Assembly: GCA_900313265.1 (NCBI GenBank)
Contig: OMRN01000062.1
Coordinates: 1-16,237, forward strand
Length of the DNA stretch: 16,237 nt
From: an uncultured Lachnospiraceae bacterium
Lineage (GTDB): Bacteria; Bacillota; Clostridia; Lachnospirales; Lachnospiraceae
Direction: 5' to 3'
In this document: one piece after another, positions 4,676-8,021 of the stretch
How the letters are laid out: every line of letters starts with the position of its first letter
Position numbering within the stretch: the stretch's first letter is position 1
The notes under the pieces: generated by a model
What the model saw: only the letters and a program-made list of their open reading frames with translations
Databases searched by the model: none
What the model was told of the DNA's origin: nothing
Made by a program: the position numbers and the translations under genes

Positions 4676-5089
4676 ATGAAATTCAAATACTGCAGAATTC
4701 AAGGAAAAGAACTTGCCGCCAATACCAGAACCGGAAAAGGAATTTTCAGCATGATGAACCAGATGGTCACAGACGGTGTCATGGAAGAAGAAGATGTCGA
4801 TTTATTTCATGAAATCGATTCCTGGTTTGCGGAAGAACTGCCGTGGCCGCCGCAGTGTAAGAGGCAGGAGAAGGTCATCTGCTATTTCAAGACCGAAAAC
4901 TCCGAAATGATGATGAAAATGATTAAGCCTCTTATGTGGCTTTTAGAACGCTACGAGCATCCCTATTACGTGGTCTATACGAATTTCCCGGGAGAAATCG
5001 TCTACGAGGATGAATACCAGATTGCCGTCAAGGTTGACGAAAACGTGGTCATCGAGGATGTTCAGGCGAACTGGTCACCGACGGACTGA
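4676..5089 (+). CDS. Conserved-looking protein of unknown function, 137 residues
   Basis: I recognise no named domain. The start ATG has AAGAGGGA six bases upstream. The protein is soluble, with no signal peptide or membrane helix. It is acidic in the middle (MEEEDVDLFHEIDSWF), followed by a Trp/Pro-containing turn (ELPWPPQCKRQEKV), then alternating helix and strand to VKVDENVVIEDVQANW. The composition suggests a small alpha/beta fold. Similar short proteins occur as hypothetical proteins in Firmicutes, from memory and without a family name. It is transcribed toward the SCIFF locus; the 95 bp gap holds the SCIFF promoter and no convincing terminator, so read-through is possible. A role in SCIFF biology is only suggested by position. 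Confidence 0.8.
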   Translation: MKFKYCRIQGKELAANTRTGKGIFSMMNQMVTDGVMEEEDVDLFHEIDSWFAEELPWPPQCKRQEKVICYFKTENSEMMMKMIKPLMWLLERYEHPYYVVYTNFPGEIVYEDEYQIAVKVDENVVIEDVQANWSPTD

Positions 5090-5121: not shown

Positions 5122-5150
5122 TTGATAAAAGCGCAAAATAATGTTATCAT
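5122..5150 (+). promoter_or_regulatory. Sigma-A promoter of the SCIFF precursor gene
   Basis: TTGATA (5122-5127), a 17-base spacer and TATCAT (5145-5150) each match five of six consensus bases. RNA would start near 5157, giving a leader of about 28 bases with the ribosome site AAAGGTGG (5169-5176) eight bases before the ATG at 5185. Confidence 0.75.
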
Positions 5151-5184: not shown

Positions 5185-5331
5185 ATGAAGAGAATTAAAA
5201 CACTTGAAACCCGTAATCTTTGTAACAGTGCGAAGAAAGGCGGATGCGGCGAATGCCAGACTTCATGCCAGTCGGCGTGCAAGACAAGTTGCGGAGTTGC
5301 TAATCAGAAGTGCGAAAACAAAGAAAAGTAA
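5185..5331 (+). CDS. scfA: SCIFF ranthipeptide precursor (six cysteines in forty-five residues family)
   Basis: This 48-residue ribosomally made precursor is recognised by the leader MKRIKTLETRNL and the core CGECQTSCQSACKTSC, which is diagnostic of the SCIFF family (TIGR03973 type). The conserved cysteines are at 21, 24, 28, 32, 36 and 43. The adjacent radical SAM enzyme is expected to join a core Cys thiol to a side-chain carbon of a nearby residue, as shown for CteA/CteB and Tte1186 (family knowledge). Two departures stand out. A seventh Cys lies at position 13 in the leader. Residue 37 is Gly; my recollection is that the family usually has Thr there and that it is the crosslink acceptor for Cys32. 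The peptide has its own promoter, a good ribosome site and a terminator directly behind it, which should make precursor far more abundant than enzyme. The natural role of SCIFF peptides is unsettled. Confidence 0.96.
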   Translation: MKRIKTLETRNLCNSAKKGGCGECQTSCQSACKTSCGVANQKCENKEK

Positions 5332-5341
5332 GCACATCAAC

Positions 5342-5369
5342 AAATACCGTCTGAGAAGACGGTATTTTT
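5342..5369 (+). terminator. Intrinsic terminator between precursor and maturase
   Basis: A perfect ten-pair stem, AATACCGTCT (5343-5352) with AGACGGTATT (5357-5366), closed by a GAGA tetraloop and running into a T5 stretch (5365-5369). It begins 11 bases after the precursor stop and lies 32 bases before the maturase ATG. No separate promoter is evident in that gap, so the maturase and the genes behind it probably depend on read-through. Confidence 0.85.
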
Positions 5370-5401: not shown

Positions 5402-6781
5402 ATGGTTCATCAGTACAAACTTAACGGATTCAACATTGTTCTGGATTCCTGTTCCGGTGCGGTTCATGACGTGGACGAAGTCGCATACGATATGATTGCG
5501 ATGTTTGAAAATTCCCCGAAGGAAGAAATCATCGAAACGCTTCTTACAAGGTATTCACACCGCAAGGATGTCACGAAAGACGAGTTGGAAGAATGCTATG
5601 CGGACATTCTTTCGCTTAAGGAAAGCGGACAGCTTTTTACCGAAGATACCTTTGAAGACATGGCGGGCACGTTTAAAGAGCGCAGCGGCAATGTCATCAA
5701 AGCGCTCTGTCTGCATGTCGCGCATACCTGCAATTTAAACTGTTCCTACTGCTTTGCCAGTCAGGGAAAATATCACGGAGACCGCGCACTTATGAGTTTC
5801 GAAGTCGGCAAAAGAGCGCTGGATTTTCTGGTTGAAAATTCCGGAAGCCGTACCAATCTCGAAGTGGACTTCTTCGGAGGCGAACCGCTCATGAACTGGG
5901 ATGTGGTAAAAAAACTGGTGGAATATGCCAGAAGCATCGAAAAGGAAAAAAACAAAAATTTCCGTTTCACGCTTACGACAAACGGTGTTTTAATCGATGA
6001 TGACGTGATTGAATTTGCCAATAAGGAAATGAGCAACGTCGTGCTTTCCTTAGACGGAAGAAAAGAAATCCATGACCGCTTCCGTATCGATTATTCCGGA
6101 AAAGGAAGCTACGATACGATTATTCCGAAATTTCAAAAACTCGTGGATGCAAGAGGCGGAAAGGGCTACTATATCAGAGGAACCTTCACGCATTACAATC
6201 CCGATTTTACAAAGGATGTTTTCCATATGGCGGACTTGGGATTCACCGAACTGTCCATGGAACCCGTGGTCGGAAAACCCGAAGACGAAACCACCCTGAC
6301 CCCGGAAGATATCGAAATCGTAAAAGAACAGTATGAAATTCTGGCAAAAGATATGTTAAGGCGGACGAAGGAAGGAAAACCGATAACCTTTTACCATTAC
6401 ATGCTGGATTTAAAGGAAGGACCCTGCATTTACAAGCGTATCTCCGGCTGCGGATCGGGAACCGAATATATGGCGGTTACTCCGTGGGGCGATTTATATC
6501 CCTGCCATCAGTTTGTGGGTGAGGAGTCCTATAAACTCGGTGATATATGGAACGGTGTTACGAACGATGCACTCCGGGAAGAATTCCGAAGCTGCAATGC
6601 GTACGCAAGAGAAGAATGCCGCGACTGCTGGGCAAAACTATACTGCTCGGGAGGATGCGCCGCAAATGCCTTCCATGCTTCCGGAAGCATAAGGGGAATC
6701 TATAAACCGGGATGTGAACTATTTAAGAAAAGAATCGAGTGCGCCATCATGATGCGCGTCAGTGAAAACAGTGAAGAATAA
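5402..6781 (+). CDS. scfB: SCIFF maturase, radical SAM/SPASM thioether-forming enzyme
   Basis: This 459-residue enzyme would install thioether links in the precursor encoded just upstream, using S-adenosylmethionine and 4Fe-4S clusters. Residues 1 to about 90 look like the small peptide-recognition (RRE, PqqD-like) domain. The radical SAM core holds CNLNCSYC with Cys110, Cys114 and Cys117, followed by GGEP at 159-162. The C-terminal SPASM/twitch region carries Cys342, 350, 368, 398, 406, 409, 415, 419, 438 and 447, enough for two auxiliary clusters as in CteB. Length and layout match TIGR03974-type maturases. The start is ATG at 5402 with only a weak AGAGAG upstream, consistent with low expression behind the terminator. 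The next gene starts inside the last 20 bases. Confidence 0.96.
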   Translation: MVHQYKLNGFNIVLDSCSGAVHDVDEVAYDMIAMFENSPKEEIIETLLTRYSHRKDVTKDELEECYADILSLKESGQLFTEDTFEDMAGTFKERSGNVIKALCLHVAHTCNLNCSYCFASQGKYHGDRALMSFEVGKRALDFLVENSGSRTNLEVDFFGGEPLMNWDVVKKLVEYARSIEKEKNKNFRFTLTTNGVLIDDDVIEFANKEMSNVVLSLDGRKEIHDRFRIDYSGKGSYDTIIPKFQKLVDARGGKGYYIRGTFTHYNPDFTKDVFHMADLGFTELSMEPVVGKPEDETTLTPEDIEIVKEQYEILAKDMLRRTKEGKPITFYHYMLDLKEGPCIYKRISGCGSGTEYMAVTPWGDLYPCHQFVGEESYKLGDIWNGVTNDALREEFRSCNAYAREECRDCWAKLYCSGGCAANAFHASGSIRGIYKPGCELFKKRIECAIMMRVSENSEE

Positions 6782-8021
6782 AGTCAGTACACCGATTGTT
6801 GATTATATAACCGAATACGCCGCATCGGACACTTCCAGGCTTCACATGCCGGGGCACAAAGGCAAAGCACCGGATTTTCTGCCGGAAGGATTCAAAGAAA
6901 CCTACCGATACGATATTACCGAAATAACCGGTGCGGATGATTTGTATGCTCCCTCCGGAATCATTAAGGAAAGCGAAGAAAACGCCTCAGAGATTTTCGG
7001 AGCCAAAACATTTTACTCGCCCGAGGGTTCGAGCCTTTCGGTCAAAGCCATGATTTATCTGGCACTGAAGCACTATGAACGAAATTCCGACAGCAACACG
7101 GAAGCTGCTGCTTCCAAAAGCAACGGCATTCTTTTGAAAAACAAACCGGCACCCTACATCATTACCGTCGGGACCTGTCATAAATCGTTTTTCCATGCAA
7201 CCGGGCTTTTAAATATCGAAACCGAACGTATCGAAAACAGGAACCATTCCGGCACGCAGAATGCAGGAGATCTGCTCCCGGAAATACAAAAAATCCTATC
7301 CGGGAAAAAAGCTGCTCCGATCGGCTTATATGTAACCTGTCCCGATTATTTCGGAAACATTATAAATCTTAAGGAATTAAAGAGTATTCTTTCCGGAATG
7401 AATATCCCTCTTTTGGTGGATGCGGCACACGGAGCATATTTTAAGTTCCTTGACAAGGAAAAATACGCGGAATATACACATCCCGTCGACGGCGGAGCGG
7501 ATCTAAGCTGTACCTCCGCGCATAAGACACTTCCCACTCTTACGGGTGCGGCGTATCTTCACATAAACGAATCCTTTCTTGATGTTTATCCCCTGGCAAA
7601 ACATGCTATGGAAATCTTCGGTTCATCGAGTCCGTCCTATTTAATATTAGCAAGTCTCGATGCCTTTAATGCCGAAGCCGCAAAGTATAAAGAAGATTTA
7701 TCGAAAACCTGCGTCCGAATCGAAAAACTCAAAAATGAGCTTTCCGGTATGGGATTTCACATAAAAAAAAGCGATCCACTTCGAATCGTCGTTTTAAAGG
7801 ATGAACTCCGTTCCGGGAAAGATTTCGCTTCCTCCCTTCGAAAACACCGTTGCGAATACGAATGTTTCGATGACGGATATGTCATCCTGATGCTGACGCC
7901 GTATAATTCCGAAGCGGATTTAAGTCGTATCCGCGAAGCGTTTGAAACCGTAAAGAACCGTCCCGGGGACTTTGAAATCCTTCCGGAGAACGGTTATAAC
8001 TGCCTTAAGAATTTTTCATAA
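6762..8021 (+). CDS. PLP-dependent Orn/Lys/Arg decarboxylase-family enzyme, compact form
   Basis: The 419-residue protein belongs to the fold-type I Orn/Lys/Arg decarboxylase group (PF01276 type). Evidence: RLHMPGHKGK near the N-terminus, His140 in TCHKSFFHA, Asp220 in LLVDAAHGAY (pairs with the PLP ring), and the Schiff-base lysine Lys255 in SAHKTLPTLTGA. It has no N-terminal wing domain. It is shorter than the roughly 480-490 residue SpeA/YaaO forms, the C-terminal domain being reduced. Such enzymes decarboxylate Arg, Lys or Orn to a polyamine or diamine; the substrate cannot be fixed from sequence. The start is GTG at 6762 or GTG at 6771. Neither has a Shine-Dalgarno sequence, and both overlap the maturase end, so translation probably relies on coupling to the maturase. 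The link to the SCIFF locus is unusual as far as I know. Confidence 0.88.
   Translation: MKTVKNKVSTPIVDYITEYAASDTSRLHMPGHKGKAPDFLPEGFKETYRYDITEITGADDLYAPSGIIKESEENASEIFGAKTFYSPEGSSLSVKAMIYLALKHYERNSDSNTEAAASKSNGILLKNKPAPYIITVGTCHKSFFHATGLLNIETERIENRNHSGTQNAGDLLPEIQKILSGKKAAPIGLYVTCPDYFGNIINLKELKSILSGMNIPLLVDAAHGAYFKFLDKEKYAEYTHPVDGGADLSCTSAHKTLPTLTGAAYLHINESFLDVYPLAKHAMEIFGSSSPSYLILASLDAFNAEAAKYKEDLSKTCVRIEKLKNELSGMGFHIKKSDPLRIVVLKDELRSGKDFASSLRKHRCEYECFDDGYVILMLTPYNSEADLSRIREAFETVKNRPGDFEILPENGYNCLKNFS

Follow-up and report, generated by a model that had tools for sequence, protein, structure and literature searches.

The locus analyzed here raises the question of where the thioether cross-link of a SCIFF peptide is placed when the precursor has no threonine at position 37. 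The window, by which we mean the whole stretch of 16,237 nucleotides (contig OMRN01000062.1 of an uncultured Lachnospiraceae bacterium, assembly GCA_900313265.1), contains a precursor gene whose 48-residue product, by translation, is MKRIKTLETRNLCNSAKKGGCGECQTSCQSACKTSCGVANQKCENKEK. Its cysteines at residues 13, 21, 24, 28, 32, 36, and 43 and its Gly37 are exactly as an earlier note on this DNA had read them. That note regarded the precursor as exceptional, since its core reads KTSCGV where KTSCTV was expected and since a seventh cysteine lies in the leader. The features on which the argument depends are collected in the table.

Features of the SCIFF locus in the window (coordinates in window positions)
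Feature	Position	Strand	Basis or remark
SCIFF precursor gene	5185..5331	+	48 aa; translation and TIGR03973/PF13165 profile matches
Leader, residues 1-20, with Gly-Gly end; core starts at Cys21	within 5185..5331	+	Predicted leader/core border
Cys13 codon, in leader	5221..5223	+	Translation, relatives, tree; common to the Cys13/Gly37 subclade
Cys32 codon	5278..5280	+	Translation; thioether donor in characterized SCIFFs (literature)
Thr34 codon	5284..5286	+	Translation, class sample; likeliest acceptor, Thr in 79/79 sampled families
Gly37 codon GGA	5293..5295	+	Translation, class sample; 64 Thr versus 15 Gly among 79 sampled families
Terminator- or attenuator-like hairpin, then short U-run, between precursor and maturase genes	5342..5367	+	-14.8 kcal/mol, z -4.9
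SCIFF maturase, CteB homologue; RRE, radical SAM and SPASM domains	5402..6781	+	Profiles, structure search, model
Cys17 codon of maturase; beta2-beta3 turn of the leader-binding RRE (model)	5450..5452	+	Co-occurs with precursor Cys13
Thr109 and radical-SAM motif C110-x3-C114-x2-C117	5726..5752	+	Alignment
PLP-dependent Orn/Lys/Arg-decarboxylase-like enzyme (PF01276)	6762..8021	+	Frame overlaps maturase 3' end

Judged by its sequence, the window system is a SCIFF by every testable feature except Thr37, and the family sample described below indicates that Thr37 is not required. The precursor scores 80.5 bits against TIGR03973 (cut-off, 50) and 82.5 bits against PF13165 (cut-off, 27), and all six core cysteines (21, 24, 28, 32, 36, and 43) are present, as is Thr34. 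A PDB sequence search with the precursor returned four weak unrelated matches and no SCIFF. The maturase gene starts 70 nucleotides downstream, and its product scores 765.5 bits against TIGR03974 (cut-off, 425). The best-scoring solved relative is CteB (5wgg), aligned over residues 1-455 of 459 with an E value of 1.5e-161, and the model of the window maturase superimposes on that structure with a TM score of 0.94 normalized by target and 0.77 by query. A 137-amino-acid open frame lying just upstream of the precursor (4676-5089) has no Pfam or NCBIfam match and, among 250 fetched loci, was seen at the window's own locus only.

Among 80 related named loci, which were picked by maturase similarity and are therefore biased towards the window's type, the peptide was recovered in 78, and all 78 carry both Cys13 and Gly37; the record names include Lachnospiraceae, Oscillospiraceae, Oscillibacter, Dysosmobacter, Faecousia, and Roseburia, among others. 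Sequencing or assembly error, or decay of the gene, might be suspected in so fragmented an assembly (477 contigs, 73% complete), but such explanations are ruled out, with a probability that we put at practically nil, by these 78 relatives, by the intact maturase, and by the single intact SCIFF copy that the assembly contains.

A less biased sample was drawn from the 322 of 391 genomes of the class sample in which SCIFF is present, by taking, in each of 79 families, a single genome with a SCIFF. Of these families, 64 have Thr at position 37 and 15 have Gly, with no third residue seen, so that Gly37 cannot be peculiar to a single genome. Position 34 is Thr in 79/79. The search expression used for this count required SACKTSC, and a separate expression without that requirement gave the same peptides. 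KTSCTV is the core of the majority, as the earlier note had stated, and its claim that the precursor is exceptional falls on the very alignment on which it had made that claim depend: Gly37 is found in 15/79 families, and 5/79 combine it with Cys13. Cys13 was found in 6/79 families, the sixth being a Thr37 peptide with a divergent leader (L248). A Fisher test of Cys13 against Gly37 by family (5, 1, 10, 63) gives a p value of 0.0007, a figure that ignores shared descent and constitutes no proof. In a larger set of 295 distinct peptides, made up of the fetched loci plus 120 listed of 5508 SCIFF database proteins and hence weighted to the Gly type, the expression required Cys21, Cys28, Cys32, and Cys43 and left positions 34 and 37 free; Thr34 is present in all 295, with Gly37 in 191 and Thr37 in 104. 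Neither Ala nor Ser occurs at position 37 in the 79 families or the 295 peptides. It is thus almost certain that Gly37 and Cys13 are hallmarks of a widespread subfamily, not a local defect; Cys13 is common to the whole subclade and so is no local oddity either.

Several unusual precursors were encountered in these surveys. One Cys13/Gly37 precursor (L041) has an eighth cysteine, at leader position 16. In another locus (L241, G064:C84:13790-16060), two complete SCIFF modules lie in one open frame, each with a TLNTRNL leader and a Gly37 core, and a similar double unit is found in P0035; a tandem precursor such as L241 might yield two products per chain. P0118 has lost a core cysteine and has Gly at position 36 (KTSGGVANQ), and P0002 is a frame with two leader-like parts, the second unit of which has lost a core cysteine and has Gly at position 24.

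A quick maturase tree from a short search comprises 95 rows of 110 candidates, those without a complete maturase or peptide having been set aside and column 17 excluded. Of the sampled families, it covers 14 of 15 with Gly37 and 51 of 64 with Thr37; the remaining Gly37 family (L214) is unplaced because its contig ends before the maturase. All 37 Gly37 rows, the window included, form one clade (SH-aLRT, 100) on a stem of 0.56 changes per column, and the 27 Cys13 rows form one clade nested within it (SH-aLRT, 98). The tree needs one change at position 37, two for Cys13, and four for maturase Cys17, with Cys13 arising once within the Gly37 clade. Since 18 of 92 inner branches reach 95, 40 are open, and the search was short, the deeper order is unreliable. 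An independent-contrast test of Gly37 against Cys13 rests on one pair and gives no support beyond shared descent.

Within the window's own genus (G000-G030), SCIFF was found in 14 of 31 genomes, the Thr37 type accounting for eight, the Gly37/Cys13 type for five, and an unreliable hybrid for the last. The SCIFF-less genomes have no maturase match over the cut-off, one of them (G009) having a cut maturase end at a contig edge, and among those lacking both the precursor and an above-cut-off maturase are near-complete genomes such as G004, G005, and G015. With two types among 14 of 31 genomes and near-complete genomes that lack both genes, the system seems to be gained and lost as a unit, and the presence of both types within one genus suggests transfer of that unit between lineages. 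The hybrid (G011; L104/L250) joins a Cys13 leader to a Thr37 core, and a Thr37-type maturase follows; the 5' part resembles the Gly37 type, and the 3' part and the beginning of the maturase resemble the Thr37 type. Because a separate contig of the same assembly (L251) carries a Gly37-type maturase piece and a PLP gene, recombination within the nearly invariant core and an assembly chimera are equally likely, and the peptide is given no weight here.

The published assignments of the SCIFF acceptor, as reported in the review portions that we consulted (PMC8326336, PMC8172795), disagree. In vitro, a Cys32-Thr37 link was assigned for both Tte1186a and CteA, the only assignment that the earlier note gave, and one that it gave correctly. 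When CteA was coexpressed with CteB in Escherichia coli, the link was placed between Cys32 and Thr34 via C-gamma, a discrepancy that the reviews call unresolved; consequently, Thr37 as the expected acceptor is less settled than the note held, the in vitro assignment standing beside one to a residue that the window precursor possesses. Only one link is reported there for CteA and for Tte1186a. The first alpha assignment for a SCIFF was withdrawn, and the same portions name no SCIFF maturase as a proven alpha-linker.

We give about even odds to the window holding a Gly37-type SCIFF ranthipeptide system of the ordinary kind, consisting of the precursor, a CteB-like maturase, and a PLP-enzyme gene, in which Cys32 is linked to the C-gamma of Thr34. 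The leader strand would bind the RRE of the maturase, the radical SAM domain would join Cys32 to the gamma carbon of the invariant threonine two residues on, and the leader, including Cys13, would then be removed, perhaps after the Gly-Gly. With Thr34 as the acceptor, the loss of Thr37 leaves the acceptor in place, and because the Gly37 peptides retain Thr34, Cys32-Thr34 is the likeliest product; a clade without Thr37 yet with Thr34 and an intact maturase would fit this acceptor without special pleading. Family and maturase scores far over their cut-offs, the nearly full-length CteB alignment, Thr34 in 79/79 families and 295/295 peptides, the published coexpression, and the single change at position 37 on the tree together speak for a Cys32-Thr34 link. 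Counting against it, two in vitro studies assigned Thr37, and position 37, being only Thr or Gly in 79 families, is under constraint and not free. Ser35 (79/79), Asn40 (78/79), and the greater part of the core match Thr34 in conservation, so that conservation by itself cannot single out Thr34. The maturases of the two types also differ: in a comparison of 96 distinct Gly37 and 102 Thr37 maturases over 450 positions, 25 positions, 2 of them insert columns, have a residue present in at least 90% of the Gly37 maturases and at most 10% of the Thr37 ones, and such near-fixed differences are not needed by a neutral change at position 37.

Of the options that the earlier note had listed, the two strongest are still a move of the link to Thr34 and a C-alpha attachment at Gly37. 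In the latter, Gly37 itself would be the acceptor throughout the Gly37 clade, the maturase taking the C-alpha hydrogen to form a true sactionine with Cys32, and the clade would be an alpha-thioether branch of the ranthipeptide family; we consider this unlikely. Glycine can serve in this role, as it is the reported sactionine acceptor in streptosactin (Cys31-Gly34, according to a review), and the spacing from Cys32 to residue 37 is that of the in vitro Thr37 link. The strict choice between Thr and Gly, with no Ala or Ser intermediate although ACN to GGN takes two base changes, and the 25-position divergence of the maturases are also the trace that a change of acceptor chemistry would leave. The switch coincides with the one long maturase stem, and the near-fixed changes from the Thr37 to the Gly37 type include Phe331/Phe333 to Tyr and, immediately ahead of the radical-SAM cysteines, Asp109 to Thr (most Thr37 maturases have Asp there, and most Gly37 maturases Thr). 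However, clade-wide differences are expected on any long branch, the CteA coexpression placed the site at Thr34 with gamma chemistry (PMC8326336, PMC8172795), and the withdrawn alpha assignment (PMC8326336) together with the lack of any proven alpha-linking SCIFF maturase in the review portions tells against it. A link to another conserved residue (Ser35, Val38, or Asn40), several links, or a main product other than a thioether in the Gly37 clade is equally doubtful. It could draw on the invariance of Ser35 and the near-invariance of Asn40 and on the fact that all six core cysteines are present in 79/79 families; the one link reported gives the remaining cysteines no role. As far as the review portions go, neither characterized SCIFF uses such an acceptor (PMC8326336, PMC8172795).

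The leader cysteine has a possible counterpart in the maturase. Maturase Cys17 is present in 81 of 83 distinct Cys13/Gly37 maturases. By comparison, 2 of the 13 Gly37 maturases whose precursor lacks Cys13 have it (genome G052 supplies both rows), as do 2 of 102 Thr37 maturases; the commonest residue at this position of Thr37-type maturases is Asn (75/116). Cys13 might therefore be functional, meeting Cys17 at the RRE edge while leader bound, through a disulfide, a shared metal ion, or close packing, and helping to hold or gate the precursor. The contact is plausible because the modeled RRE places Cys17 in its beta2-beta3 turn and because the CteA leader is reported to extend the RRE sheet next to beta3 (PMC6231123), and we treat it as a lead that is suggestive only. 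As an explanation of Cys13 we rate it improbable, since Cys17 ranks just 12th of 450 columns in separating Cys13 from non-Cys13 Gly37 maturases and shared descent alone could explain the pattern. L192 and L235 carry Cys13 without Cys17, as does L248, and the contrast test of Cys13 against Cys17 has two independent pairs only (on average 0.4 in the same direction, 0.1 in the opposite direction, and 1.5 with no difference), giving no support to a link. A model of the fused precursor and maturase has a mean pLDDT of 72 and places a leader strand at residues 4-7 and a helix at residues 12-17, but leader residues 11-20 are modeled at a low pLDDT of about 51. Two Thr37-type loci (L134 and L187) have maturase cysteines at both positions 12 and 17 of the RRE, though their leaders are free of cysteine.

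The hairpin between the two genes is naturally read as a device that would give more precursor than maturase. A hairpin is predicted within 60 nucleotides of the precursor stop in 14 of the 14 relatives folded, out of 80 fetched, by folding without a shuffle control and with U-runs unexamined; the window hairpin is absent from the listing of the consensus scan. A promoter-like site at 5122-5150 carries no weight, one having been found against 0.7 expected by chance.

The gene that follows the maturase also distinguishes the types. Counting as testable those distinct loci with at least 330 nucleotides of downstream sequence, the PLP gene lies directly after the maturase in 69 of 81 Cys13/Gly37 loci (2 more are too short), the other 12 having another neighbor; L059 and L060, among these 12, have a PLP homologue upstream on the opposite strand. 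Among Gly37 loci that lack Cys13, it follows the maturase in 1 of 8 testable ones (4 have too little sequence), with a second case in G052. None of the 44 testable Thr37 loci has it (another 51 are too short), and 11 of them have SecD next; as most Thr37 tails with neither PLP nor SecD are only 360-570 nucleotides long, divergent neighbors could be missed. Four further loci had no counted peptide; two of these have the PLP gene and one has SecD. L248 has neither. The genes beyond the PLP gene, scanned in four loci, vary (metallo-beta-lactamase fold, aldolase, DUF6560, or serine dehydratase). A search of 41 genomes for the PLP family found a low-scoring form (71-128 bits) beside Gly37-type maturases or fragments in G000, G010, G017, G011, G009, and G052, and higher-scoring members, weak partial matches, or none in Thr37 or SCIFF-less genomes of the window's genus; Gly37-type G016 gave no PLP match, its contig stopping inside the maturase. 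The window enzyme contains SAHKTLP, which we take to be the lysine motif. Its gene position suggests that it acts in the same pathway as the SCIFF system.

A reading that joins these strands would make the Gly37 clade a natural switch from a gamma/beta- to an alpha-thioether maturase, with a Cys32-Gly37 C-alpha link made in a remodeled active site, a Cys13 leader lock via maturase Cys17, and the PLP enzyme in the same pathway; the combination is highly unlikely. The window peptide is ordinary for its lineage, and its value lies in a natural test of a disputed assignment. The Gly37 clade, in which Thr37 is absent and Thr34 and an intact maturase are kept, constitutes a natural mutant series for the CteA acceptor: normal cross-linking in its members would mean that the acceptor need not be Thr37, and a link to Gly37 would mean that the family can switch between alpha and gamma chemistry. 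The PLP neighbor and the Cys13-Cys17 pattern offer starting points for work on later processing and on substrate recognition. None of the titles and abstract openings surveyed described a Gly37 SCIFF type, and a text search for the motifs KTSCGV, KTSCTV, SACKTSC, and CGECQTSC found no paper, figure sequences and most subscription papers being outside its scope.

Among known systems, thermocellin CteA/CteB of Clostridium thermocellum (5WGG, 5WHY) shares with the window a SCIFF precursor and an RRE/radical SAM/SPASM maturase of the same fold, aligned over CteB residues 1-455 of 459, and Cys32 and Thr34 are retained. It differs in that the reviewed CteA link lies at Thr37 in vitro or Thr34 in coexpression, whereas the window has Gly37 and a leader Cys13. 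The window system should work like CteA/CteB. Tte1186a/Tte1186 of Caldanaerobacter subterraneus is likewise a SCIFF with a Cys32 donor (PMC8326336, PMC8172795), but its assigned acceptor, Thr37, is absent from the window precursor. Streptosactin GggA/GggB, which has a radical SAM/SPASM maturase and a glycine thioether acceptor, is the model for a sactionine at Gly37, but its precursor belongs to another family, not SCIFF, and its Cys31-Gly34 spacing is three. Freyrasin PapA/PapB also has a ranthipeptide maturase, and the window maturase scores 282.6 bits against the PapB model, under the cut-off of 340; in PMC8172795, PapA is described as having Cys-x3-Asp motifs and beta links. Also close are the Thr37-type SCIFFs found in the window's genus and class (L087 and L091, for example), which have the same maturase family and a core alike except at positions 37 and 39 and at variable positions. 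They differ in Thr37, in residue 39 (Gly in the window's genus and Gly or Ala in the class), in the lack of Cys13 in the eight of the window's genus, in a maturase residue 17 that is mostly Asn, and in the gene after the maturase, which in the 44 testable loci is SecD 11 times and never the PLP gene.
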